Source: Brachycybe producta (lineage: Eukaryota; Arthropoda; Diplopoda; Playtdesmida; Andrognathidae). Taken from it: DNA of 64,000 nucleotides. The notes below the pieces were generated by a model that worked only from the letters and a program-made list of their open reading frames with translations, searched no databases and was not told the DNA's origin. Positions within the stretch are counted from its first letter, which is position 1. Every line of letters begins with the position of its first letter. The translations under genes were made by a program, and so were the position numbers. The DNA lies in NCBI GenBank assembly GCA_036925085.1, contig JAUPFP010000066.1:186001-250000 (forward strand), written 5' to 3'. Of the stretch, positions 17,431 to 58,870 are shown piece after piece.

Positions 17431-18335
17431 TAACTACAAAAATTAACTGCAGTTATACTGTATAACCAAATTTACTGTTAACTGTAGACAAACTAGAAGT
17501 GGTAGTGCAGTGTTTCCATTTAAAATACTTAACTTTGGTTAAATGATTGTGTCACTTCCTGTTTAAACAGTTGTGTTTTTTGTGAAAATTTCACTCCTCA
17601 TTCAGTAAAAAAAAAACTGAAGTGTTCTCACTATCCGCCATGTTCTTTGTAGGCTAAAGTTGGTTTGAACACAGGAGGAAGTGATATATTTAACTATTTG
17701 CAAGGGGGTTAACCACATTGTGTCAATGCAGTCAAGTTAATCCCTAGGTTCAGAAATATTTGCCATGCTTAAAGTAACCACACTTGTTTTCATTAGAAAA
17801 TGAACTGTGGTTAACTTTTAACTGCAATTCATGTTTTCTAGTGGAAATGAATGAGATATTAGAGACTATAGTGATCCGAAGTCTGAGGAAGAATAGTTTT
17901 AGATGTTAGGTTGACCACTAGCCTCTAACCGTATGTTTTGATTCAAAATTACATTTTATTGGTTGCCTTACTGATCAGTAATTACGTTCTTTCAAATAAA
18001 ATTGGATAGTTATTTCTAAAAAAAAAAAAAAAAAGCCGCGAAAATGGTGCTTAAGTAGAGAGCCGATGAGCTCCAATGTTGGCCACCACCTAGTCTCTTA
18101 TGAAATAAGAACAAGGAGCTCGTTAGAAAATAAGTCCTTATAATATGTTATGTTATTTATAATATTGAAAAATCTTCTTTCTTCTTTCAATGCTTGTTAA
18201 ACTTGCAAAAATGTTCAGAAAGAATCAACATTTTGACAATGACAAAATAGACAACAGTTTGAAAGTTATGTTTGGCTTCGGGTCAAGAAAATCTTTTCTT
18301 CTTTTGTTTCTTTTGAAATAAATATATATATATTT
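17431..18335. other. No gene seen; diverged foldback arms and family III debris
   Basis: 17445-17850 is rich in TTAACTGCAGTT/AACTGTGGTTAAC words, the outer arms of the hairpin element. Near 17920-17975 CCACTAGCCTCTAACC resembles family III. A pure A run lies near 18020-18034. Confidence 0.45.
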
Positions 18336-18533
18336 ATGTTACTGTCAATCTGCGGAATCAGTCAATCTGCAGATTGTCTACGCAATCTGCAAAAGCACCA
18401 AACTGCTAATGAATCTGCAAAATTCAATACATTTTAGGTGTTGAATTTTGCAGATTCACAAGCAGGTTGGTTGGTTTTGCAGACTGCCTAGGCAATCTGC
18501 AGATTTACTGATTCCGCAGATTGACAGTAACAT
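18336..18533. repeat. Family M palindromic MITE, copy 2
   Basis: Same termini as copy 1 (ATGTTACTGTCAATCTGCGG and inverse). The centre reads TGCAAAATTCAATACATTTT, then AGGTGTTGAATTTTGCA. TA precedes and follows TGTTACTG...CAGTAACA, fitting a TA target duplication. Confidence 0.85.
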
Positions 18534-41605: not shown

Positions 41606-42075
41606 TAATGTAGAAAAGTAGAAATGCAAAGAAACTTTTCTTCTTCTTCTTCTGATTTTGTCTATTTCTATTTTCTGCTTTTTTTCGTGCACTATGTGTG
41701 ATCTAGGCCTAACTTATTAGCAAATTAATAAAAATAAGTTTTTCTTGTGTAAAAATTAACAGTGGATAGGCAAAAAAAGAAACAAATTTTATGGCAATTT
41801 TGATGTTGTAGGAAATTGTATTTGTTTGTTAAATTTGCGATTGTGTTTGGTCGTATTTGTTTTTACTCTGCTTTGTTTATCAATTGCCGCCAATAGTTGT
41901 TCCTTTTTTATTTACAAGAGAAAAAAAAAATAAGACACGTGAAGAACAAACTGAAAACAATAGAAATAGAGGTTTATTTTATTTTGTTGTCAGGTTATCT
42001 TATTGACTCGCCTGTACTTTTGTCAACAAGTTCTACAATCACACAATTGTGTTTAATTATATTATATAGGCCTAT
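41606..42075. other. No gene seen; left flank of the large LTR element
   Basis: AT-rich. The last bases before the element read ATATAGGCCTAT. Confidence 0.5.
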
Positions 42076-42538
42076 TGTAACGAATTCATCGTCAGAATTC
42101 GTTGTTATGTTGAAACACCCTGTAGTTTTAAGTATTTTGATCGATGGGTTTCACCTCATGCTTGGGGGTGGGCGGGAGGTTATCCAGACGATACCTCCCT
42201 ACCCTACAGGATGAGGAAAAGACGGCAAATGAATTGTATCGTCAATTCTTATAGGATAATTCCTAGAAGAATTGACGATATAGAACTTTTGGCCAGTGAA
42301 ACACCGGTCAAGTGTGACGAAAAGGATACAGAAGTCCTTTTCGTAATTAAATTGTATTGTTATCGTTTGAAGAAGGATCAACGAAGATCCTTCTGTATTG
42401 TTATAATTTATACATCTTATAGATGTTTTCGTTTTCTTGATAAGTGATAGTTCACTTCTAGGTCCGAGTGTGTCCAAGAGACTTGGACACACCTGGAGCC
42501 TTTGTTATCATAATCAGATGTTTGTATTGTATTTTGAG

Positions 42539-42546
42539 TATAAATA
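42539..42546 (+). promoter_or_regulatory. TATA box of the 5' LTR
   Basis: TATAAATA, with the transcription start expected about 25-30 bases downstream, near 42565-42575. Repeated at 51216-51223 in the 3' LTR. Confidence 0.75.
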
Positions 42547-42554
42547 CAAGAGGT

Positions 42555-42643
42555 TGTAGATTGAGAGGACAGATCGGATAGATCAGGCAGATCGGACAGA
42601 CCGTCTTTATGCTTAAGACCGATGCGATATCTCTCAATCTACA
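42555..42643 (+). promoter_or_regulatory. Long hairpin at the start of the element RNA
   Basis: TGTAGATTGAGAG (42555-42567) is perfectly complementary to CTCTCAATCTACA (42631-42643). The enclosed part contains CAGATCGGA repeats and GTCTT/AAGAC. Its place just after the TATA box recalls 5' structured leaders of retroelements. Repeated in the 3' LTR at 51232-51320. Confidence 0.7.
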
Positions 42644-42660
42644 GGACTCTCTGTTTATTG

Positions 42661-42666
42661 AATAAA
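42661..42666 (+). terminator. Polyadenylation signal in the 5' LTR
   Basis: AATAAA. The equivalent at 51338-51343 in the 3' LTR is the one expected to end the full-length RNA, which would place the R/U5 border 15-30 bases later. Confidence 0.75.
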
Positions 42667-42926
42667 AGAGCATTTTCATCATACGAATTCAATGTGTGGA
42701 CTCAGTCATTTTATGGGAGTGGGACTTAGGATTATAGCCGCCACGTAGCCGATGTTTCCACCGGACAACGAAGTCTCCAGCAGCCGAGTGTAAGACGACA
42801 TCTCTACAATATTCTCTACCACAGGTCTCCTGAGGTACCGACCCTTGTGTCCCTGGTGGTTAAGTAGCAACACAGGAGCCAATAGACCGAAAGACTTAAT
42901 CATCAACATCCATTCGACACTTCTAG

Positions 42927-44621
42927 ATGGCTAGTAGAGATCTCTCTACTAACCCTACGGAAACGGGGATGTTACAAAATGGTGGAGGTGCGGGGTACCT
43001 CACTACAGATCCAGTAGAGAATACCAATGATGTCGGAGTTACACCAGGTGGTAAAGGAAAGAAAGGCAGACCGAAATCGAAGTCGAAGACACGGGAGAAG
43101 GACGATACAAACCAAATGGATGGAGAAGATCCACTTGAAGGTATCCTTCAAAATCTAAGTGCTGAAAGACGGGAGAGACTGATGGCCTGGTTCGAAGCCC
43201 AGCAACCATCAGGATCGATGTTACTCCGGAGCGGGCGTGGTGTAAGTACGGTTCAGCGTCATACGGTAGTCCGAGAAATGGATACCGGAGTGGAGCCCTC
43301 GTCGGCCCACGCTGAATCTCAGCGTCATACAGTGATTCCTGGATTGGACACTGAAGGGGAGCCCTCGTCGGCCCACGCTGAAAACCTAAGACAGGTTAAT
43401 GTATTCCAGACGCCGCTCATGCTGAAGAAGAGTGGAGGGACCCAGAGAGGTCGCCTACCTGAGACTCCTATTCGACGGAGAGAGAACCCGGACCAGCTAG
43501 AGGATGAAAGCCTAACAAGTGAGGATCCCAGCGTAGAGGAGCTGGAAGGAAATCCAATTTGCAATCGTCATCGGACCTGTGAGGAGCTGGATGGGAAGTA
43601 CAAGAGTCTTCACCCACTCCGGAATCTGGAGACCTTCAAAGGATTGACGTCTGTATACACCTTTCTGGAGGACTACGAGAGTATCGCAGATCTGGAGGAC
43701 TGGAGCAACGTCCACAAGACCTACTACCTACGTAAAGCGGTAGAAGGGGACGTAGTACGTTGGTTATCCAATTTCTACAAAGAAAATAGAGGAAAAACCA
43801 CGTGGGACTTCATACGGAGCGAGTTAATTGAAAGATTTGGACGTCGAGACGAGTTAGTGCAACTGAAGCTGAGGTTGGATACCATGCTCCAAAGGAAAGG
43901 AGAGGACACCAATCAGTTTTTGGGTCGCTACCTTGACTTGAGTAGAAAAGTGTTACCGGGGGTAACCGACAAATACCGGATTGTGGAATTTCGGCAGAAA
44001 CTTCATCCGATTATACGTAATGCTACACAGAATGCACCGAATGGCAATCTGAAGCTGTACACGACATATATCAAGGATACCGAGGAAGTTTTGATGGCTG
44101 ATGGGTTATGGATACCGGAAGGAACGATGGGTCAACAAACGACGACCCAGGTCTCCAAGGGTCCACAGAAGAATAACCAACGCCAAAATGCCAAACAGAC
44201 GCAAGCAGTAATGGACGGAGGACGTTCTTACGCGGTTGTTACTCAAGATCAAGCGGACCCAACAAACAACTCGACTCCATCAAATTCAAATAACCAAGCG
44301 CAACAGAAGATCAACCAGAACTCGAATCAGCAACAAGGTCGGAAATGGAACCAAAGATATCCGCAGAAGAAGAACTACAATGGTCAGCAAACGCAAGATG
44401 GAAGTAAAACCCTGAAAGATCTCAGCACAGTAGAGTGTTATCACTGTCACGAGAAGGGTCACTTTTCAAGAAACTGCCCAAAGAAAGTAGTCGCGGATGG
44501 AACCATTGGACTTGTTCAACATGGAATGGCCACTGGAAGAAATGGCCAGCAGTATTTTGTCGTCAGCGAGAACGGGCAGAAGAAGTTCCTGCGAGAGGAA
44601 AACCCGGCTGATTTAAACTAG
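42927..44621 (+). CDS. gag: Gag polyprotein
   Basis: 564 residues. An in-frame TAG precedes the ATG at 42927, so this is the first possible start; M15 at 42969 is the alternative. The first 17 codons lie in the LTR, and codons 18-24 overlap the primer-binding site. Residues about 30-60 are lysine-rich. Residues 105-155 contain a repeated QRHTV..DT..EPSSAHAE segment. Residues about 225-395 look like a retrotransposon gag (capsid) domain (LETFKGLTSVYTFLEDYESI, TTWDFIRSELIERFG). 400-490 is rich in Q and N. A classical zinc knuckle C-x2-C-x4-H-x4-C sits at C504, C507, H512 and C517 for RNA binding. The protein should assemble the particle. Its TAG at 44619-44621 directly follows the slippery site. 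Confidence 0.93.
   Translation: MASRDLSTNPTETGMLQNGGGAGYLTTDPVENTNDVGVTPGGKGKKGRPKSKSKTREKDDTNQMDGEDPLEGILQNLSAERRERLMAWFEAQQPSGSMLLRSGRGVSTVQRHTVVREMDTGVEPSSAHAESQRHTVIPGLDTEGEPSSAHAENLRQVNVFQTPLMLKKSGGTQRGRLPETPIRRRENPDQLEDESLTSEDPSVEELEGNPICNRHRTCEELDGKYKSLHPLRNLETFKGLTSVYTFLEDYESIADLEDWSNVHKTYYLRKAVEGDVVRWLSNFYKENRGKTTWDFIRSELIERFGRRDELVQLKLRLDTMLQRKGEDTNQFLGRYLDLSRKVLPGVTDKYRIVEFRQKLHPIIRNATQNAPNGNLKLYTTYIKDTEEVLMADGLWIPEGTMGQQTTTQVSKGPQKNNQRQNAKQTQAVMDGGRSYAVVTQDQADPTNNSTPSNSNNQAQQKINQNSNQQQGRKWNQRYPQKKNYNGQQTQDGSKTLKDLSTVECYHCHEKGHFSRNCPKKVVADGTIGLVQHGMATGRNGQQYFVVSENGQKKFLREENPADLN
42980..42997 (+). other. Primer-binding site inside gag, alanine-tRNA-like
   Basis: TGGTGGAGGTGCGGGGTA starts three bases after the LTR. 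Its first 12 bases are complementary to the 3' end (GCACCTCC-A-CCA) of typical animal tRNA-Ala, as I recall that sequence. This would prime minus-strand synthesis. It is also read as gag codons. Confidence 0.8.
44612..44618 (+). promoter_or_regulatory. -1 ribosomal frameshift heptamer TTTAAAC
   Basis: In the gag frame: GAT TTA AAC TAG. T TTA AAC is one of the strongest known slippery sequences. After slipping, the frame reads TTT AAA CTA GAA AGG GTG and continues as pol. Confidence 0.9.
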
Positions 44622-47600
44622 AAAGGGTGGCAGTAAAGAGGGGCCTACCGCCCTTTAAGAACGGAAAACCCTCTGGAAAACGACAAAATCGAAACGAAAC
44701 AGCGATCGCCAATTCCCGAAACATTGTGGATAAAGCTTTGTTGGGGGGGAATAGGGGCGTGAGCGAAGCTACCAATGTCACTAAAACTAGACGGAATGCT
44801 GGAGCACCGAAGAGACCATGCGATTTGGACACTCAAGGACTCCCTGAGCAATCGTCGGAGTTGTTAGTCGGCATTTCGAATGTCGCCACAACTAGACCAA
44901 AGGCTGGAGCACCGAAGAGACCATGTGATTTGGACACTCAAGGACTCCCTGAGCAATCGTCGGAGTTGTTAGTCGGCATTACGAATGGAAAACGACAACG
45001 GAATTCACGAAAATATAAGAAGCTGCGAAAGGATACTGGTCGAAGGGGAGAAATTATCGAGGAGATATTTCCGGAACCCATCATCTGGTCACCTACGAAA
45101 GCTATGGTAGTTTACGCGAATAGCTTGGAGGAAGCAAAGAGAATTGTGGAAGCCATGGAAACTGGAGTTAATCAAGACAGAATTGAGGGAGAGACCCAAC
45201 AGAATTCTGCGGTGCCAGTCGGAATTGAGGGAAGGACCCAACAGAATTCTGCGGCGTGTATACCGGGGATAAGCAATGTTGCTCAGGAAATCCCTCAAGA
45301 TGTAACATCCAATGTTATTGCCTCGGGCAAGGCCGAAACTGATGCTAAGAAATCCAAGAAGGCTATTGTAAATGCAGCTATCGGTAGAGGAGATGATACC
45401 AGTAGGATCCCTGCGAACAGCGAGGTTATTGAATCCGTTGAAGTTGGAGATTTATTGAGGAGTAGGGCTTGTTGTCGAAAGAGTGTCGAAATCACTGTAG
45501 ACAGCCTACTCACCTCATGCGAACTCATCGAGGTAGGAGATACTACGCCCGATGAGAGCGTTGCCAAGATTACCATTCAGGTTGACGGCACACCAGTTCG
45601 ATTTTTGGCGGATAGCGGAACTGGGTTCACTATCTTGTCAGGCACAATGGCCAAAGAGTACGGACTTCGATATGGACCAATCCGGAACGCACCTGCATTA
45701 GGCGCAGTAGGAGGGGTACCGATTAAGGTACTTGGTCAGTTGTGGCCAACGTTCGAGTTGAACGGAAAGCAAGTAACGGCAAGGATGCTCATCATAGATG
45801 GAAAACGAGAAGCACTGCTGGGGAGAGACCTGGGAGCTGCGTTTGATCTCATCATTTCCATGAAGACCTCCAAGATCTACTTTGCTAATGAGATGTTCTA
45901 CGAAGGAACACGAGAATTGTTGAAGAAAGGAAGTGCGCGTAGTAGCCTTCCCTGGAATTTCTTCAAAGAGTTAAAAGAGGAGGGATGTGCTCAGAATAGC
46001 CATCTGGATAACTCCTATGCCATAAAAGCTAGAGAGGAAAGCTGCGTAAAAGCCCAAGGAAGGATTACGTTAAATCCGGGCCAGGCTTTGAACCTCAAAG
46101 TAGCTGCAGGGCGGATCATTGAGGAAAACGAAGTACTCATGATTGAAACGAACGATAGTCTCTTTAATAGAAAAGGCATCGTTGTGGCCAGCAGTGTGCT
46201 ACAAGGGGATGGGACATCACAACTGGAAGTCCAACTCCTGAATACCACACTGGAGTCCGTGGGGATTGGAGACCGCGAGACTATTGGACACTTCGAACTT
46301 CTAGAAGAACTAGAAGAAGAGCAAGCCTGCAAAGTTTCCGAGGAGGAAAACTTTAGAGACATCGGAGAAGCACCCGTTGATTTTGAAAGAGAAATTCAAC
46401 TTGGTCCTGAACTGACAGATGATCAAAGAGAAGAGTTGACGATCCTACTGAAGGAGTTCCAACCGATCTTCGCCTTTTCATCTAAGGACCTGGGAGCTAC
46501 GAATCTGACCAAACACAAGATCGAAACTGGAGATAATCTACCTGTTCGAGACACGTTACGAAGATGCGGGCCTGGGGAACGCATCGTAATTGATGAGACG
46601 CTAGAGGAGATGAAGAAATCTGGGGTTGTAAGGCCATCGAAATCGCCGTACGCATCGCCCATCGTCCTTGTAAAGAAGAAGGATGGCTCCTACCGTTTCT
46701 GTGTAGATTATCGGAAGTTGAACGCGATTACAAAGGCAGACACTTATCCATTACCGAGGATTGATGATGCATTAGACTCCATGAGAGGAGCATGCTACTT
46801 CGCAACGCTGGATATGAAGAGTGGATACTGGCAGTTCGAGATGGAAGAAAGCGACATCGAGAAGACCGCATTTACATCTCATCGAGGATTGTTCGAGTTC
46901 GTAAGAATGCCTTTCGGACTCCGAAACGCTCCTGCCACTATGCAACGTGCATTAGACATCCTACTCGCCGGGCACAAATGGGAAACGTGCCTTGTCTACC
47001 TTGACGACATCGTAGTGTTTGGAAGAACGTTCGAAGAATTTTTGGAAAGACTGAGAACTATCTTGGACCTGCTGAGGACAGCAAACCTGAAGTTGCATCC
47101 AGTGAAATGCTTCTTTGGATTCCAAGAAGTGAAGTATTTGGGACACCTGATCTCGCCTGATGGAATTCGGCCAGATCCAGATAAGGTTGTCGCCATAAAG
47201 AACTTCCCAGTTCCTGACAATGTAACCGCAATCAGAAGTTTTCTTGGATTGGCGGGTTATTATCGAAAGCATGTACCTGGATTTGCCAACATAGCGAAGC
47301 CAATGTCAGACCTTACGGGTAAAGATATACCGTTCGAATGGTCAGTTGACTGCGAAAATGCATTCCGCACGCTAAAGAATATGTTGTCGAAATCTCCATT
47401 AGTTGCCGTATATGATCCGAAGGCTGCAATATTTATGCATACTGATGCCTGTGGATACGGAATTGGAGCGATGCTTTACCAGAAGTCAGAGGATAAACGA
47501 AGAAAGGAGATCATTGGAAGTGTCTCCAGAGTTCTAAGGGACGCGGAAAAGAACTACAGTACGACGGATAAGGAGTGCCTAGCAGTAATCTATGGAGTCA

Positions 47601-50600
47601 CCAAGTTCCGGCCGTACCTGTTCCAAAAGCCCTTTACAATTGTGACGGATCACCACGCATTATGCTACATGAAAACTGCAGCACGTCTGGAAGGAAGACT
47701 TGGTCGCTGGCAGCTGCTAATGCAGGAGTACGACTACAAAATCATCTACAAAGAGGGGAAACTTCACATCGAAGCCGATTGCCTCTCGAGATATCCAGCA
47801 GGAGTGCCTGTTAACTGGAAGGCCATCCCAGAAGCGGAAGACCTAGATGACAGTGTGATCTTTAATGTAACCTTACAATGGGATTGGAAGGTGGAGCAAA
47901 AATTGGACCCAGAGATTTTGAAGATTCGTGAGGAGTTGCGTAACCAACCAGAGTCACCTCTTCATAAGTTGTTTTGCGATTACGACAACAAGTTGTTCGC
48001 TTGTGTGTTTCACGGAAGTTCCGTACCCACACTCGTGAATGTGGTGCCAAAACATCTCATCCCAGAAGTAATGAGATTATGCCATGACGAGCCCGATGCT
48101 GGTCATGAGGGACAAACTAAGACCTGGAATAGAGCCAGGCAAAGATTTTATTGGAATAACATGAAGCACGACATATTCGAATATGTGCGCACATGTGAGA
48201 TTTGTCAATTACACAAGTTGGGTACGGAGAAACCTGAAGGGTTCCTTCAAGAAATGCCCATTGGAAAGCCTTGTGATTGCTGGGGAATGGATTTCATTGG
48301 ACCATTAGTACCGTCGGTTGGAGGAAACAAGCACATCTTGTTGGCAGTCGATTACGCCACTCGATATTGCGTTGCTAAAGCAGTGAAAAGCACAACCGCA
48401 CTAATCGTAATGAACTTCCTAGCAAAAGACGTAAAGAAAATCTTCGGGATACCAGAGAAACTCATTTCGGATCGAGGGACGCCGTTTGTTGCAAAGAACA
48501 CTCAAGAATTCTTGAAAATAAACAAGATAGAGCACGAAACAACAACTGCCTACCATCCGCAAAGTAATGGTCTCGCCGAAAGGACGAATAAAAGCATTAT
48601 TCAGACTATGAAAAAGTATCTGACTCCTGCGAAGAACCAGACTGATTGGGCTACAAAACTGGATGAAGTTCTGGAATCGTACAACTCATCTGTACATTCA
48701 TCCACGAAGTTTACGCCGTACAGACTCATGTTTGGGAGGGAGCCCAGAACTAAAGTAGACACCTTAGTTCCAGAACGACCAGTTATCGTGGATAACGAGG
48801 CAGGAAACCTCGTGGACGTTCGACAACAGGCGGAAGAACGCCAAGAAGAAGAACTAAGAACAGCCAGGGCGAACCTGAAAGCAGCACATGATCGTCGAAA
48901 GAAGTACTACGACCAAAGGCATAAGAAGCCTTACGAGTACCAAATCGGACAGAAAGTACTTGTACGAGACATGCGAATCAGGCCTGGACAGAACAAGAAG
49001 TTCTTAACGAAATGGAGACAGGGATATACGATTGTGTCGAAAGTATCGGACACCGTATACCGATTGAGTTACGAGAATCGAGCTGGAAGATTAGTGGAGG
49101 ACTCTGTAAACGTTGCAAACCTGAGACCACTATATGAGACTTACCAAAAGAACGGACCCAATGTTCCTAAGACTGGAGACACCCTGGAGTCCATGGGTAA
49201 CTCATCGCCAGAAGAATCCGAATCGGAACCTGTAAAAGAAAAAGAAATGACAGCGTTTGTCAAGAAAAAGAACTTACCTTCGCGTAAGAAGAGGTGTTGT
49301 GGACACTGCAGATGCCAAAATGCTTGGATCGAATCTTCTGAGGATGAAGAAGAAATTGAGATAATTACGAAAGCAATCCGAAAGCATTCTGACCGTAACG
49401 TCGAAATTAGAAGAAAAATGGCAGCAGACGACAACCAGCAGCAATTCTCATACTTACCTGGCGAAGATGCGATGAAATTCACCAGAGAATATGGTAACAA
49501 GACGAATTTTACCATGGAAACCATTGGATTTGTTGAAGAAATCAGCGAAATTCCTGAAGAAACGATGAAAATCGACGAAAAAGATGTAAATTCGCCGATG
49601 GAATTTCAAATGGAGGTGAAAAACGCGGAAGTTATCGATGAAACAGCAAAAATGGACGATGATATCGATGCTAGTGACGCCACAGATGGAAATGACGTCC
49701 CAAATGAGGAAGTAAACAGGGAGCGGTCAATGACGCTACCAAGCATGGAAGAAACACGTGGGCGGAGGGATACATTAAGTGAAATGTCTACTAGCCTCGC
49801 ACCACTATGGATCCGGGTCCTATTGTTTATGTTCTTCATCACTGACAGCTTTGCCCATGTGTTGAGCACATGTACAGGCACTATTTCTCATCATCTTTTT
49901 GTTTTGAAAAGTTTTCACCCATCCATCGTGGAAAATTGTGAAAATTTCTATCGCTCGATTACGGAAAGCATCAAAAGTTTTGTTTTACTTATGCAAATTT
50001 GGTTTACCATCGTGTGCGATTACGATGGCCGGTTTATGGAAAATAAGGGGGCTGCCCTTCCAGTCGAGATTGCCAACTCAGGTCTCACAGAAGACCTGTT
50101 GGTTCGCGGAGTTTGGCGTTGGAGGCAACGAAGGCCTCTCGTCAAACGAAACCGACTCAACAGAGGCCTGAGGAATCAATTAAGGTTGGAAATCCACAGC
50201 TTCTCTCATCATGGGCCAAATAATCGAGTAAAACTGAAGGATGTCCGCCCTCATGAGCCTGGGCCAACATACAAGGACGACGTCGAAGTAACGGAGCCGA
50301 AGACTACCGCCAGGAGCAATATGGAAGCTCCTGGGAGTCCTAGGGCTTCTGTAACGTCTCCTGGACCTACATCCTTTTTGACGAGACCAGCAGTCATGCA
50401 GAGGAACGCAAAAGTCACCGAAGTCACCGAAGGTCTGCCGAAACCGCCATCCTTCTGGAAAGAGACTTGCGCAGGAGCAAAGAAGATCCTGCTCAAGGAT
50501 GAGCCATTTTGGACTACTAGAGGCCTTGGACTTATACTATTACTATACTATTTTATACTTGTGTTTATCGTTTTGAGTATTTCCATACTTGTTTTGTTTA

Positions 50601-51124
50601 TGCACGCTTGCATTTATTCGGAACACATTTCTAGTATTTTTATACTTTTCGTTTTGTATTTTTACTGCATGCCTAAATTTTATACCAACGGGTATTTTTG
50701 CAAGGTCTTATTTTTGGAAGCACAGGGACGTGCTTATAAACTAGTTGGGGGGTGTAACGAATTCATCGTCAGAATTCGTTGTTATGTTGAAACACCCTGT
50801 AGTTTTAAGTATTTTGATCGATGGGTTTCACCTCATGCTTGGGGGTGGGCGGGAGGTTATCCAGACGATACCTCCCTACCCTACAGGATGAGGAAAAGAC
50901 GGCAAATGAATTGTATCGTCAATTCTTATAGGATAATTCCTAGAAGAATTGACGATATAGAACTTTTGGCCAGTGAAACACCGGTCAAGTGTGACGAAAA
51001 GGATACAGAAGTCCTTTTCGTAATTAAATTGTATTGTTATCGTTTGAAGAAGGATCAACGAAGATCCTTCTGTATTGTTATAATTTATACATCTTATAGA
51101 TGTTTTCGTTTTCTTGATAAGTGA
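44612..51124 (+). CDS. pol: Pol polyprotein: protease, reverse transcriptase, RNase H, integrase, long C-terminal extension
   Basis: Made by -1 frameshifting; residue numbers count from the GTG at 44627. 1-300: basic linker with a 35-residue tandem duplication. Protease at D329-S330-G331, then LLGRD. Reverse transcriptase about 625-870: ATLDMKSGYW with D729 and YLDD at 791-794. RNase H about 930-1060: TDACGYGIGAML with D940, later DHHAL and EADCLSR. Integrase: zinc-binding H1153, H1160, C1190, C1193; catalytic D1222, D1282, E1318, with 35 residues between the last two; then a GPY/F-like module about 1430-1500. From about 1505 a 540-residue extension follows. The frame ends with about 123 codons inside the 3' LTR. 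No stop or missing catalytic residue was found, so the enzymes look functional. Confidence 0.93.
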   Translation, partial: FKLERVAVKRGLPPFKNGKPSGKRQNRNETAIANSRNIVDKALLGGNRGVSEATNVTKTRRNAGAPKRPCDLDTQGLPEQSSELLVGISNVATTRPKAGAPKRPCDLDTQGLPEQSSELLVGITNGKRQRNSRKYKKLRKDTGRRGEIIEEIFPEPIIWSPTKAMVVYANSLEEAKRIVEAMETGVNQDRIEGETQQNSAVPVGIEGRTQQNSAACIPGISNVAQEIPQDVTSNVIASGKAETDAKKSKKAIVNAAIGRGDDTSRIPANSEVIESVEVGDLLRSRACCRKSVEITVDSLLTSCELIEVGDTTPDESVAKITIQVDGTPVRFLADSGTGFTILSGTMAKEYGLRYGPIRNAPALGAVGGVPIKVLGQLWPTFELNGKQVTARMLIIDGKREALLGRDLGAAFDLIISMKTSKIYFANEMFYEGTRELLKKGSARSSLPWNFFKELKEEGCAQNSHLDNSYAIKAREESCVKAQGRITLNPGQALNLKVAAGRIIEENEVLMIETNDSLFNRKGIVVASSVLQGDGTSQLEVQLLNTTLESVGIGDRETIGHFELLEELEEEQACKVSEEENFRDIGEAPVDFEREIQLGPELTDDQREELTILLKEFQPIFAFSSKDLGATNLTKHKIETGDNLPVRDTLRRCGPGERIVIDETLEEMKKSGVVRPSKSPYASPIVLVKKKDGSYRFCVDYRKLNAITKADTYPLPRIDDALDSMRGACYFATLDMKSGYWQFEMEESDIEKTAFTSHRGLFEFVRMPFGLRNAPATMQRALDILLAGHKWETCLVYLDDIVVFGRTFEEFLERLRTILDLLRTANLKLHPVKCFFGFQEVKYLGHLISPDGIRPDPDKVVAIKNFPVPDNVTAIRSFLGLAGYYRKHVPGFANIAKPMSDLTGKDIPFEWSVDCENAFRTLKNMLSKSPLVAVYDPKAAIFMHTDACGYGIGAMLYQKSEDKRRKEIIGSVSRVLRDAEKNYSTTDKECLAVIYGVTKFRPYLFQKPFTIVTDHHALCYMKTAARLEGRLGRWQLLMQEYDYKIIYKEGKLHIEADCLSRYPAGVPVNWKAIPEAEDLDDSVIFNVTLQWDWKVEQKLDPEILKIREELRNQPESPLHKLFCDYDNKLFACVFHGSSVPTLVNVVPKHLIPEVMRLCHDEPDAGHEGQTKTWNRARQRFYWNNMKHDIFEYVRTCEICQLHKLGTEKPEGFLQEMPIGKPCDCWGMDFIGPLVPSVGGNKHILLAVDYATRYCVAKAVKSTTALIVMNFLAKDVKKIFGIPEKLISDRGTPFVAKNTQEFLKINKIEHETTTAYHPQSNGLAERTNKSIIQTMKKYLTPAKNQTDWATKLDEVLESYNSSVHSSTKFTPYRLMFGREPRTKVDTLVPERPVIVDNEAGNLVDVRQQAEERQEEELRTARANLKAAHDRRKKYYDQRHKKPYEYQIGQKVLVRDMRIRPGQNKKFLTKWRQGYTIVSKVSDTVYRLSYENRAGRLVEDSVNVANLRPLYETYQKNGPNVPKTGDTLESMGNSSPEESESEPVKEKEMTAFVKKKNLPSRKKRCCGHCRCQNAWIESSEDEEEIEIITKAIRKHSDRNVEIRRKMAADDNQQQFSYLPGEDAMKFTREYGNKTNFTMETIGFVEEISEIPEETMKIDEKDVNSPMEFQMEVKNAEVIDETAKMDDDIDASDATDGNDVPNEEVNRERSMTLPSMEETRGRRDTLSEMSTSLAPLWIRVLLFMFFITDSFAHVLSTCTGTISHHLFVLKSFHPSIVENCENFYRSITESIKSFVLLMQIWFTIVCDYDGRFMENKGAALPVEIANSGLTEDLLVRGVWRWRQRRPLVKRNRLNRGLRNQLRLEIHSFSHHGPNNRVKLKDVRPHEPGPTYKDDVEVTEPKTTARSNMEAPGSPRASVTSPGPTSFLTRPAVMQRNAKVTEVTEGLPKPPSFWKETCAGAKKILLKDEPFWTTRGLGLILLLYYFILVFIVLSISILVLFMHACIYSEHISSIFILFVLYFYCMPKFYTNGYFCKVLFLEAQGRAYKLVGGCNEFIVRIRCYVETPCSFKYFDRWVSPHAWGWAGGYPDDTSLPYRMRKRRQMNCIVNSYRIIPRRIDDIELLASETPVKCDEKDTEVLFVIKLYCYRLKKDQRRSFCIVIIYTSYRCFRFLDK
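44622..44674 (+). promoter_or_regulatory. Predicted H-type pseudoknot downstream of the slippery site
   Basis: Stem 1: AAAGGGTGG (44622-44630) with CCGCCCTTT (44648-44656), 9 pairs including one G-U. Stem 2: AGAGGG (44637-44642) in the loop with CCCTCT (44669-44674), 6 pairs. Loop lengths of 6, 5 and 12 are sterically plausible. The 3-base gap to the heptamer is short, but the first three A-U pairs can open and give 6. Confidence 0.7.
44774..44983 (+). repeat. 105-bp tandem duplication inside pol
   Basis: 44774-44878 and 44879-44983 are near-identical and in frame (35 residues each, sharing AGAPKRPCDLDTQGLPEQSS). Differences cluster in the first 24 bases. A smaller 14-residue repeat (IEGETQQNSA, IEGRTQQNSA) follows near 45182-45260. 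Confidence 0.95.
49141..50752 (+). other. Pol C-terminal extension with membrane-type segments (possible env-like part)
   Basis: Residues about 1505-2042 of the pol frame, after the integrase. In order: a Ser/Glu-rich stretch; a Cys cluster KKRCCGHCRC (about 1555-1565); an acidic region; M1720 followed by a signal-peptide-like segment (APLWIRVLLFMFFITDSFAH, about 1724-1743); a hydrophobic stretch SFVLLMQIWFTIV; a basic RQRR sequence near 1835; and two strong membrane segments about 1965-2015. Env proteins of some gypsy-type elements have a signal peptide, a basic cleavage site and a C-terminal anchor, but here the region is fused to pol. I recognise no family; a membrane-bound integrase tail is the alternative. 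Confidence 0.5.
50747..50752 (+). other. Polypurine tract
   Basis: GTTGGGGGG ends exactly at the 3' LTR. This is the expected primer site for plus-strand synthesis; it is short but correctly placed. Confidence 0.7.
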
Positions 51125-51653
51125 TAGTTCACTTCTAGGTCCGAGTGTGTCCAAGAGACTTGGACACACCTGGAGCCTTTGTTATCATAATCAGATGTTT
51201 GTATTGTATTTTGAGTATAAATACAAGAGGTTGTAGATTGAGAGGACAGATCGGATAGATCAGGCAGATCGGACAGACCGTCTTTATGCTTAAGACCGAT
51301 GCGATATCTCTCAATCTACAGGACTCTCTGTTTATTGAATAAAAGAGCATTTTCATCATACGAATTCAATGTGTGGACTCAGTCATTTTATGGGAGTGGG
51401 ACTTAGGATTATAGCCGCCACGTAGCCGATGTTTCCACCGGACAACGAAGTCTCCAGCAGCCGAGTGTAAGACGACATCTCTACAATATTCTCTACCACA
51501 GGTCTCCTGAGGTACCGACCCTTGTGTCCCTGGTGGTTAAGTAGCAACACAGGAGCCAATAGACCGAAAGACTTAATCATCAACATCCATTCGACACTTC
51601 TAGATGGCTAGTAGAGATCTCTCTACTAACCCTACGGAAACGGGGATGTTACA
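50753..51653 (+). repeat. 3' LTR
   Basis: 901 bp, offset 8677 from the 5' LTR and identical to it as far as I can read. It contains the end of the pol frame (stop at 51122-51124), TATA at 51216-51223, AATAAA at 51338-51343 and a second copy of the gag start codon at 51604. Confidence 0.93.
51338..51343 (+). terminator. Polyadenylation signal in the 3' LTR
   Basis: AATAAA, the copy expected to be used for the full-length element RNA. Confidence 0.75.
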
Positions 51654-51674
51654 AAATGGTGGAGGTGCGGGGTA
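51654..51674 (+). other. AAA plus retained primer-binding-site copy beyond the 3' LTR
   Basis: After GTTACA the sequence continues AAA-TGGTGGAGGTGCGGGGTA exactly as after the 5' LTR, then diverges (TAAGG against CCTCA). The 18 bases equal the part of a tRNA copied up to the modified A58. A normal insertion would end at the LTR. Confidence 0.8.
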
Positions 51675-51681
51675 TAAGGCT

Positions 51682-51878
51682 ATGTTACTGTCAATCTGTG
51701 GAGTCAGTCGATCTGCAGATTACCTAGTCGATCTGCAAAACCACCAAGCTGCTTGTGAATCTGCAAAATTCAATACATTTTAGGTGTTGAATTTTGCAGA
51801 TTCACTAGCAGGTGGGTGGTTTTGCAGATCGATTAGGCAATCTGCAAATTGACTGATTCCGCAGATTCACAGTAATAT
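51682..51878. repeat. Family M palindromic MITE, copy 3
   Basis: ATGTTACTGTCAATCTGTGG to CGCAGATTCACAGTAATAT with mirrored interior (GATCTGCAAAACCACC, GGTGGTTTTGCAGATC). It lies 7 bp from the LTR element. Confidence 0.85.
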
Positions 51879-51908
51879 TGATCAGTAATATCTGCTCGAG
51901 CAACTGTT

Positions 51909-52101
51909 ATATCAAAAGTAACATCTAACATCATAGATTTCAACTGTTACAGCAAAAGTTGCAATTGTTACAGTACAGGTTGCAATTGTTAATATTACAG
52001 CAAAGGTTGCAACTCTTGCAGCAAAGGTTGCAACTCTTGCAGCACAGGTTGCAACTCCTACAGCAGAGGTTGCATTTGTTAGAGCAGAAGTTGATACTGT
52101 T
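51909..52101. repeat. Diverged edge of the 21-bp satellite, with a larger duplicated block
   Basis: A block of roughly 75-80 bp (AAAAGTAACATCTAACATCA, then TAGATTTCA and AAAAGTTGCAATTGTTACAG) occurs at about 51913 and again at about 52107, 190 bp apart. Between them are irregular units such as GCAGCAAAGGTTGCAACTCT. Confidence 0.8.
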
Positions 52102-52995
52102 ATGTCAAAAGTAACATCTAACATCATAGATTTCAGCTGTTGCAACAAAAGTTGCAATTGTTACAGCACTAGTTGCAATTGTTATAACACAGGTTGCAAT
52201 TGTTATAACACAGGTTGCAATTGTTATAACACAGGTTGCAACTGTTATAACACAGGTTGCAACTGTTATAACACAGGTTGCAACTGTTATAACACAGGTT
52301 GCAACTGTTATAACACAGGTTGCAACTGTTATAACACAGGTTGCAACTGTTATAACACAGGTTGCAACTGTTATAACACAGGTTGCAACTGTTATAACAC
52401 AGGTTGCAACTGTTATAACACAGGTTGCAACTGTTATAACACAGGTTGCAACTGTTATAACACAGGTTGCAACTGTTATAACACAGGCTGCAACTGTTAT
52501 AACACAGGTTGCAACTGTTATAACACAGGTTGCAACTGTTATAACACAGGTTGCAACTGTTATAAAACAGGTTGCAACTGTCATAACACAGGTTGCAACT
52601 GTCATAACACAGGTTGCAACTGTTATAACACAGGTTGCAACTGTCATAACACAGGTTGCAACTGTTATAACACAGGTTGCCACTGTTATAACACAAGTTG
52701 CCATTGTTATAACACAGGTTGCCATTGTTATAACACAGGTTGCCATTGTTATAACACAGGTTGCGATTGTTATAACACAGGTTGCGATTGTTGCAGCACT
52801 GGTTGCGATTGTTGCAGCACTGGTTGCGATTGTTGCAGCACTGGTTGCGATTGTTGCAGCACTGGTTGCGATTGTTGCAGCACTGGTTGCGATTGTTGCA
52901 GCACAGGTTGCGATTGTTGCAGCACAGGTTGCGATTGTTGCAGCACAGGTTGCGATTGTTATAGCACAGATTGCAACTGTTGCAACACAGGCTGT
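52102..52995. repeat. 21-bp satellite, about 40 copies
   Basis: Unit TTGCAACTGTTATAACACAG plus one G. The central block is nearly homogeneous; from about 52780 a variant with GATTGTTGCAGCACTGG takes over. Because 21 is a multiple of 3 and the unit has no stop in several frames, both strands show long frames: plus 334 codons of CNCYNTG heptads, minus 213 and 175 codons. I judge these to be by-products, since both strands are open and the changes do not protect one frame. Confidence 0.93.
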
Positions 52996-54390
52996 TTCAG
53001 TGCTAAGTTACAATGTTATTTATTGCCAAAGGTATGGATACTCTCAAAGCATAAGTTATTATTGTTCTTAAATAACCATTTTGCTATTGTCACATATATG
53101 GCGTAAAGGTGAATTACCATTTGTATTACCAGATTTCTATGATACAATCATTCTAATAGCAAAATGCCTTGCCATTGTAATATTACTGTATATTTTTTTA
53201 ATTTTTACAAATTTTCTTTGTAAACAATTTGTTAAATATCAAGGACTTTATAAAGCTGTGGAGCAGATACAAAATGATTGCTCTATTTTGTTTATCTTAT
53301 TTATTTTAGGAATCTAATCTATTTAAATTTGCATAACTGTTCTAAATCCGGGTTTTGGCTTGCCGTTTTTTTTATTCTCACAACGTTGTGAACAAAAATG
53401 TAGAATAAGCGGAGGAGGAGGAGGACTGAGGAAGGTCCCTTAAAATGTTGTAATAGTAAAAATGTGACAAAAGGGAGGGGAAGTTGTAATGAGTTGAGGT
53501 TTTTGATTGAGAGAATGGGACCTTTTTTTTTTTTTTTGAATGGAGGAACAAAAGAGTTGAATATTGGAAAGGGGGGGGGGGGGGGTGAGGGTAAATGTGG
53601 GTGGGGGTGGTGAACTTTTGGTGTCAAAAGGGTTATTCAAAAGTCAGAAAAGAACAATAGAATGGTTTAATGGGTGGCAAAAAAAGGGATACATGAAATG
53701 AGTTAGGTGAATGTAATAGAAATGAAAAAGGGGGTGTTAGAGGTTTTTTAAGGGGGGGGGGGTGGTTTGGGAGAGGTAGGTAAACTTATATGAGGAGAGG
53801 AGGTGGGAAGGAGGAGTGTCTTTGGTTGAAAGTGTGGGTGGGTTAAAAACGAAACAAAAGCGAAATGCAAATTAGCCATTAAAAGACACACGCGACTAAA
53901 AATAGAAAAATTGTATCTGCTATTGTGTTCTTATTTTTTGGTAACCATTTTGAAAAACGTTTACAACGTTATTCAAAACTAAATGGCTTCTTTATTTTTT
54001 TATTATTAGTTGTCTCTCTAATTATTACTTGTTGTAATGAATCGTTTCTACTTTTGTCAGCAAATATAGTGGGGTGGTGCAGGTAAACCGGTTTAAAAAA
54101 AATTTTAAGTGGTTAAAAACAAGTTTAAAGAATATTTTAGAAACTAAAAAAACCTACCATATTTAAAATTAAAATGTTATTTTAAAGTTGTTAAATTTTA
54201 AAAATAACGACATAAAAAAGTCGTTTTTCTTTTCCCTGTCCAAAATTTTAAGTTTTATTTTCAAAAAAATGCTTAGTCTTATTTTTAAATAATTCTAGTT
54301 TGACATCTAGCATGTGGACTCTAGCCTCAAGTCAGGTTTTTTATACTGAAAAAAAATATCTCTGATGATTTAGAGCCATATTGTTAATGG
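52996..54390. other. No gene seen; G-rich and AT-rich simple sequence
   Basis: G-runs near 53571-53586 and 53751-53761, a GGA tract near 53409-53425, and a T run near 53521-53537. The ORF of 53081-53317 is hydrophobic but has no supporting context. Confidence 0.45.
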
Positions 54391-58154: not shown

Positions 58155-58870
58155 GTGTTTTTTTGTGCGTGCGTGTAATATTTGTGTGTTTCATACACAA
58201 ATATTACACGCACGCCCAAAAAAACACGCTTCTATAACACAGACAAACCTGTGCATTACACGTGTTTTGTATGCGTCGTTTGTCTTATTTGACAATGTAT
58301 ATGTTACTGTCAATCTGCGGAATCAGGCAATCTGCAAAACCACCAAACTGCTAGTGAATCTGCAAAATTAGACTGAGGCAGATACACCGCAGTTATAGGC
58401 GTGTGGCTCTCATGATTTAACACAGGCAAACACGCGTAAAATACGCGTGTTTGTCTGGTTGATGAGAGACGCGCGTGTGTATTTGTTTCAAATTCGCGTG
58501 CATGCACGTGTGTTTTCTATGTCTTTCCATTTTTTTAAAAAAAAGTACTGAAACACAAGCTGAGTGTATGTCCGTGCGCGCGTGTATGCGTGTTTCGTGA
58601 ATGACACAGAGAGACACGTGTGAAATACTTGTCTTTTATGTGTTATGTCTGGTTGATGTTAAATGGGCACGTGTTTCAGAGGCTTTTGAACGGTGTGTTC
58701 TGTGTCTGTCTACGTTTTTTTTGTGTGCGTGTGTCTGTTTGTATCTGGCATTATTTTCTTGTGTCTCTTATAAATTGCACGCACGCGCGCGCGTGTGTAT
58801 GTATGGTCTTTAGACTTTCTATTTTCGTTTTGTGTTAAATGTGCGTGACTTGTAATCACGTGTCACAGAA
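58155..58870. repeat. CACGCG/CGTGTG-rich region with a strong hairpin
   Basis: At about 58155-58231 GCGTGCGTGTAATATTTGTG and CACAAATATTACACGCACGC form a stem, extended outward by GTGTTTTTTTG and CAAAAAAACAC. Further on CACGCGT, CGCGCGTGTG and GCACGCGCGCGCGTGTGT recur. A truncated family M MITE sits at 58301-58370. Confidence 0.75.
58301..58370. repeat. Family M MITE, left third only
   Basis: ATGTTACTGTCAATCTGCGG to GTGAATCTGCAAAATTA, then unrelated sequence. Confidence 0.8.

Follow-up and report, generated by a model that had tools for sequence, protein, structure and literature searches.

Abnormal 3' junctions of HIV-1 and MLV in Mre11-deficient cells were reportedly described by Sakurai et al. 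in 2009. HIV-1 and MLV 3' junctions can carry unprocessed bases together with partial primer-site sequence (PMC2797772). The HIV-1 junctions kept 2, 4, 11 or 15 bases of the primer-binding site (PBS), and inserted bases of unknown origin and microhomologies were found as well; three HIV-1 proviruses read at both ends had intact 5' junctions, with target duplications of 3 bp, 2 bp or none, in no case of normal length. Primer-site junctions were confined to Mre11-deficient cells, the mutant cells reportedly had abnormal 5' junctions as well, and the authors' view was that extra bases had been attached to the viral end prior to strand transfer (PMC2797772).

HIV-1 2-LTR circle junctions can also contain unprocessed U5 followed by the PBS (PMC5618025, Table 1), and viral insertions at these junctions have been tied to defective RNase H activity (PMC5618025). 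In the one-bad-end integrations of ASLV and HIV-1, one end is joined by integrase and the other is aberrant (PMC5041404). A spumavirus model in which only the U5 end needs trimming is discussed in PMC1180852, which casts doubt on the premise of this asymmetric processing. The passages of PMC4422153 considered here treat HERV-K loci with unusual direct repeats and not primer-site copies. According to the relevant part of a 2026 review, the major product of HIV-1 plus-strand strong-stop synthesis ends before m1A58 of the primer tRNA, with minor products ending further on (PMC13191261). In the open-access literature searched, we found no published LTR-retrotransposon case with a retained tRNA-primer end.

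Here we describe such a candidate in a window of 64,000 nucleotides (the whole stretch analysed; G000:C66:186001-250000) from the 295-Mb genome of Brachycybe producta. The window carries an LTR element at 42076-51653. For Pfam searches it was cut into five pieces, each searched separately; the last piece gave zero matches. The features of the locus, in window positions, are as follows.

42072..42075, plus strand: CTAT, left copy of a putative 4-bp target duplication (matching copy at 51680-51683)
42076..42976, plus strand: 5' LTR, TG...CA, 901 bp, identical to 50753-51653
42927..44621, plus strand: Gag-like reading frame with CCHC zinc knuckle, a mechanical ORF (PF00098, E 4e-4, at the curated cut-off)
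42977..42997, plus strand: AAA spacer and 18-nt PBS in the normal place, complementary to the tRNA-Ala(AGC) 3' end with CCA
45569..45829, plus strand: retroviral-type aspartyl protease domain (PF13975, E 7e-7)
46670..47146, plus strand: reverse transcriptase domain (PF00078, E 8e-32)
47414..47731, plus strand: RNase H domain (PF17917, E 2e-33)
48044..48559, plus strand: integrase zinc-binding and core domains (PF17921, PF00665)
50747..50752, plus strand: G-run abutting the 3' LTR, by its position the end of a putative polypurine tract
50753..51653, plus strand: 3' LTR, TG...CA, 901 bp, identical to 42076-42976 with zero mismatches
51654..51656, plus strand: AAA spacer, normally absent between 3' LTR and target duplication (which directly follows CA in 25 of 26 pairs)
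51657..51674, plus strand: probable retained 18-nt copy of the tRNA-Ala 3' end (PBS sequence), from identity to the 5' site and the tRNA match
51675..51679, plus strand: TAAGG, five bases preceding the MITE-like repeat, source not found
51680..51683, plus strand: CTAT, right copy of the putative target duplication, from the family 4-bp rule and a chance estimate
51681..51878, plus strand: right-flank palindromic repeat, MITE-like, starting TA, from comparison with other copies

The order of the Pfam domains (zinc knuckle, protease, reverse transcriptase, RNase H, integrase) is that of Ty3/gypsy elements. Together with the TG...CA LTRs, a PBS complementary to a host tRNA 3' end and, at family level, a short target duplication of fixed length (4 bp), it indicates that the window element is a Ty3/gypsy-type LTR retrotransposon. 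Its insertion is recent, because both 901-bp LTRs are identical. The true start of the Gag-like frame is probably later than listed, since the listed start (42927) lies inside the LTR. The paired family copies fall into two size classes, one with LTR-to-LTR spacing of ~8.2-8.7 kb and LTRs of 880-902 bp (7 of 26 pairs) and one with spacing of ~10.3-10.6 kb and LTRs of 830-850 bp (19 of 26). LTR lengths were equal in 24 of the 26 pairs, and 40 scored 5' junctions (of 613 candidates) showed 100% identity over 301 bases, so that the family must have been active recently.

Comparison of the two ends of the element showed that LTR identity extends 21 bases further, through AAA (42977-42979 and 51654-51656) and TGGTGGAGGTGCGGGGTA (42980-42997 and 51657-51674), and breaks at 42998/51675. 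Thus, as a preliminary description of this DNA had claimed, the right LTR is followed by AAA plus 18 PBS bases, an exact repeat of the bases after the 5' LTR, and then by divergence. Allowing up to three mismatches, the 18-mer occurs in the window at these two places only, and shuffled sequence is expected to give 0.00 matches, which rules out a chance match. At the left junction, which is intact, the flank meets TGTAAC as in other family copies. The 3' junction keeps U5 bases that are normally trimmed, AAA and then the PBS. The junction is real and rare, a single case read from assembled sequence.

Like the HIV-1 and MLV junctions from Mre11-deficient cells, the window element keeps normally trimmed and PBS bases on the right, and like the three HIV-1 proviruses read at both ends it is intact on the left; given those published cases, the retained-primer-copy junction is of a known kind (PMC2797772). 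Unlike HIV-1 in Mre11-deficient cells, the retrotransposon has the full 18 bases, lies in a genome assembly and has a possible target duplication of normal length. The 2-LTR circles discussed in the section of PMC5618025 cited above are unintegrated, whereas the window copy is inserted in a chromosome.

Next, we looked at the primer. A first tRNA pattern with T at position 54 gave 0 matches; the genes carry A there. A search for the tRNA 3' end with up to three mismatches returned 43 places, three of them with one mismatch (GGGATCGATACCCCGCACCTCCA). ARAGORN identified these three as tRNA-Ala with anticodon AGC, and also called an isodecoder gene with CCCGGCGCC as tRNA-Ala(AGC); tRNAs were called in four of the five fetched stretches and none in L126. 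The three genomic tRNA-Ala(AGC) genes end in ...GATACCCCGCACCTCCA and, with CCA added, give the exact complement of the 18-mer. The tRNA base directly upstream of the 18 paired bases is A58 in standard numbering. As the divergence from the element falls opposite this base, the window copy ends where HIV-1 strong-stop DNA mostly ends. By this comparison the extension corresponds to the priming tRNA and breaks off at the expected strong-stop position, with A58 placed by standard numbering, which agrees with the earlier proposal of 18 tRNA bases up to position 58. Its wording 'exactly 18' holds against the element's own internal sequence; measured against the tRNA-Ala gene plus CCA the copy has 19 bases, as the T that follows can pair with A58 too, a single extra match that has a chance of ~1 in 4.

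Among 27 inspected 5' junctions, two (L089 and L098) carry the PBS of the second tRNA-Ala(AGC) isodecoder. This finding supports tRNA copying as a source of the family's site and fits renewal of the PBS from tRNA. A further PBS variant occurs at L115. We also observed 17 places at G000:C13:203276-205789, spaced mostly by ~146 bp, in which a tRNA-Ala-like 3' arm carries T and not A at position 58; a similar arm is present in L126.

These observations suggest that the 21 bases represent a U5 end of the linear cDNA that escaped processing and kept its tRNA copy, a reading to which we assign a probability of roughly 0.8. An inserted unprocessed linear end had been the earlier proposal, and it is backed by an extension that matches the priming tRNA, stops opposite A58 and is followed by a different repeat. 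Reverse transcription would have been primed by tRNA-Ala(AGC), and plus-strand synthesis would have run through the right LTR, the AAA and the 18 terminal bases of the tRNA that the minus strand still carried before stopping at position 58. RNase H would have failed to clear the U5 end, leaving the right end at least 21 bases longer than usual. Integrase would have joined the left (U3) end normally, and the right end, not trimmed to CA, would have been joined with the tRNA copy and five further bases. In the last step, integrase may have made its usual 4-bp staggered join with the over-long end, or host end-joining may have sealed it. As in the spumavirus proposal, perhaps only the U5 end (AAA) needs trimming in this element, because no bases separate the G-run from the TG of the LTR. 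In that case a block at the U5 end would not disturb the left join, which is indeed normal.

To judge the last step we examined target duplications across the family. In 25 of 26 paired copies a 4-bp repeat lies directly before TG and directly after CA. The sole exception, L056/L057 (C1:13387957-13399737), has GAAT on the left and AAAT directly after CA on the right, which could reflect either a base change or a single A left untrimmed. Such a repeat also flanks 20 of 28 unpaired LTRs. For the other eight, the LTR start was not found in L060, L062 and L082, L061 and L073 follow a G-run and are thus 3' LTRs, L055 leads into an element, and L046 and L075 differ. The 45 family repeats favour N-T-A-N, with T as the second base in 34 and A as the third in 36, and the CTAT in the left flank of the window element fits it.

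Directly after the CA of the window 3' LTR there is no 4-bp duplication. CTAT recurs after the 18-mer and the five bases TAAGG. When we resampled the window sequence outside 42,000-53,500, the chance of meeting CTAT was 2.1% for a distance of up to five bases and 3.8% for up to ten; for a random 4-mer it was 3.5% and 6.2%. The preliminary description had seen no clear target duplication, and in this it needs correction: a family-type CTAT flanks the whole extended insertion (42072-42075 and 51680-51683; chance 2-6%). The reading of CTAT as a 4-bp duplication outside the extended insertion thus appears somewhat ahead, and because of these flanks integrase may have joined both ends. A near-repeat across both junctions, TATAGGCCTAT and TATAAGGCTAT, agrees at 9 of 11 positions (chance 0.1% in fixed register); it was noticed post hoc and was not used. 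A search for the empty site with the left flank gave one genome match only, with neither allele nor paralogue seen, and since it yielded zero empty sites, the duplication and the origin of TAAGG are both unproven.

The T of TAAGG could have been templated by A58 of the tRNA; AAGG matches the tRNA no better than it does the internal start of the element, with neither of which it agrees. Copying of the tRNA beyond A58 was rejected as the source of all five bases, as it predicts TCGAT and AAGG does not fit CGAT. The extended read-through sequence has zero exact copies in the genome. Addition of bases to the end before strand transfer, as its authors proposed for the viral junctions in the passages cited from PMC2797772, would also suit TAAGG by analogy.

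Beyond these bases lies the MITE-like repeat. We scored 40 of 1,761 first-look candidate copies and tallied their starts by eye. In 39 other copies, each in its better orientation, the start fell at 51681 in 25, one base earlier in two and later in 12; one reverse-orientation row starts three bases before 51681. Further MITE-like copies are present in the window at 18335-18533 and 58300-58369, and just past the MITE an array of 21-bp repeats of the GTTGCAACTGTTATAACACAG type runs from 52002 to beyond 52910.

For the manner of joining, our tentative choice, held at slightly less than even odds, is that integrase joined a U5 end ~26 bases too long (AAA, the 18-nt copy and TAAGG), lacking a CA tip, with a normal 4-bp cut. 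The other course starts from the same unprocessed, tRNA-copied end and differs only in the last step. Here integrase would have joined the left end only and host end-joining would have sealed the right, with some host DNA lost; CTAT would be coincidental and TAAGGC would be original host sequence beside the MITE. One-bad-end integrations of ASLV and HIV-1 are described in this way in the relevant part of PMC5041404, the HIV-1 junctions with primer-site bases had short or absent duplications in the cases cited from PMC2797772, and the two sides of the join may overlap by two bases, TA. However, CTAT would then need a 2-6% coincidence in a family that has a 4-bp duplication in 25 of 26 pairs. 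The bad end in ASLV and HIV-1 is often truncated and the host DNA rearranged, as far as the cited part of PMC5041404 goes, and neither was seen at the window junction, as read without an empty site. We consider host end-joining rather unlikely, at something under one chance in three.

The rarity of the junction was assessed at other LTR ends of the family. The last 22 bases of the LTR have 247 exact occurrences genome-wide, and the first 80 in contig order were fetched and inspected; 27 lead into the element's internal sequence and 53 into other DNA. None of the 53 other 3' or solo ends carries the 21-base extension, and at none does the flank start with AAATGG. Two flanks start with AAA and lack the PBS: in L090 the AAA belongs to the target repeat AAAG, and in L057 AAAT stands against GAAT in the left flank, where incomplete trimming may be conceivable. 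Genome-wide, AAATGG follows 94 of the 247 ends. Of these, the window pair alone shares a strand at no more than element-length spacing (8,677 bp); in a second same-strand pair the distance is 26 kb. The extension is therefore present at 1 of ~154 ends not followed by an element (95% interval 0.02-3.6%), the 93 others having been sorted by spacing. The preliminary description had pointed to the 3' junctions of other copies as a check, and this check confirms that the 21 bases are no fixed part of the LTR in the window family (0 of 53 inspected; ~1 of 154 genome-wide).

The 21 bases might instead be what is left of the start of another element in tandem, or a remnant of LTR-LTR recombination, but we regard this as highly improbable, at about one chance in sixteen. 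LTR-AAA-PBS is the normal start of any copy, and L039 is rearranged near the same point (LTR-AAA-PBS, one base, then pol). Against this, the break follows base 18, opposite A58 of the tRNA, where a random break in 7,755 internal bases would rarely fall; CTAT lies outside the copy; and the bases beyond it do not match the element's internal start, the next repeat being MITE-like. A simple second element was rejected because the sequence after 51674 is not the internal start and the MITE-like repeat begins at 51681. The earlier concern about a truncated second element beyond 51674 is thus answered by a different repeat.

A pattern of LTR-AAA-PBS followed by a non-C base matched two places in the genome, the window and L039. 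Because the pattern finds only breaks directly after base 18, these two matches cannot show clustering at that base. L039 (C2:1205505-1208535, minus strand) consists of a related LTR with AAA and PBS, the single base G and then pol, 91% identical to window 46040-47541; relative to the window element, leader, gag and protease are missing from the PBS end on. This deletion perhaps arose by a misplaced plus-strand transfer.

With a looser LTR end and the same non-C filter we obtained 27 matches and fetched the other 25. Twenty of them continue into the internal start of a related family, GTGCCAATAA, preceded by TA in 19, two (L130 and L151) are near the window family's own internal start, and three (L140, L144 and L146) have the PBS inside the LTR end. 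The isodecoder PBS in the same pattern gave one match, with the related family's internal start. In L130 (C6:8642102-8642276), six extra bases, GGCCTA, lie between the PBS and the usual internal start CCTCA; GGCCTA is also present in the window's left flank. Three loci of the related family were examined further:

C34:1246000-1248900, minus strand: L152, related-family solo LTR
C41:397000-399900: L153, related-family solo LTR
C48:1266300-1269200: L154, related-family solo LTR

These LTRs, of 1,118, 889 and 977 bp, begin with TGTGACACC or TGCGACACC. They have perfect 4-bp target repeats (ATAA, CAAA and AAAG), which were found by taking the right-flank 4-mer and then TG. AAA and the same 18-mer begin 72 bp before the LTR end in L153 and L154 and 73 bp before it in L152, and after the 18-mer come TAGC and another stretch resembling a U5 end; upstream in L152 lies one more unit of this kind, which is diverged. 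The arrangement would most simply be explained by duplication of U5, PBS and leader, followed by priming at the downstream copy, which fixed the PBS in these LTRs. The 21 bases are thus a fixed part of the LTR in this related family, as the preliminary description had considered, and not in the window family. The arrangement does not explain the window copy, because the window 5' LTR ends before AAA. That the window bases are LTR sequence or came from such a family is the least probable account, at about one chance in twenty-five: although L152-L154 carry AAA and the 18-mer in their LTRs and match window 51647-51676 over 28-30 bp, including TA past the site, the window element's own 5' LTR stops short of AAA, the 21 bases are absent from all 53 other inspected 3' or solo ends, and the sequences differ after TA.

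The tRNA-copied end is best read as a natural, genome-preserved case of a junction type known from retroviruses in cultured cells. Earlier retained tRNA-primer copies at integrated ends came from cultured, repair-deficient cells, and the window case is natural. With its complete 18 bases it would be a footprint from which the strong stop at tRNA position 58 can be read in an organism that has not been cultured. If integrase did join the over-long end, the locus would record, in the germline, that concerted integration can proceed without 3' trimming to CA, and it would show a natural route for tRNA sequence into chromosomes beside LTRs. The window family offers a measurable rate, ~1 in 154 ends, and other genomes with many young LTR elements could show how frequently germ cells fail to remove the primer and to trim the end.
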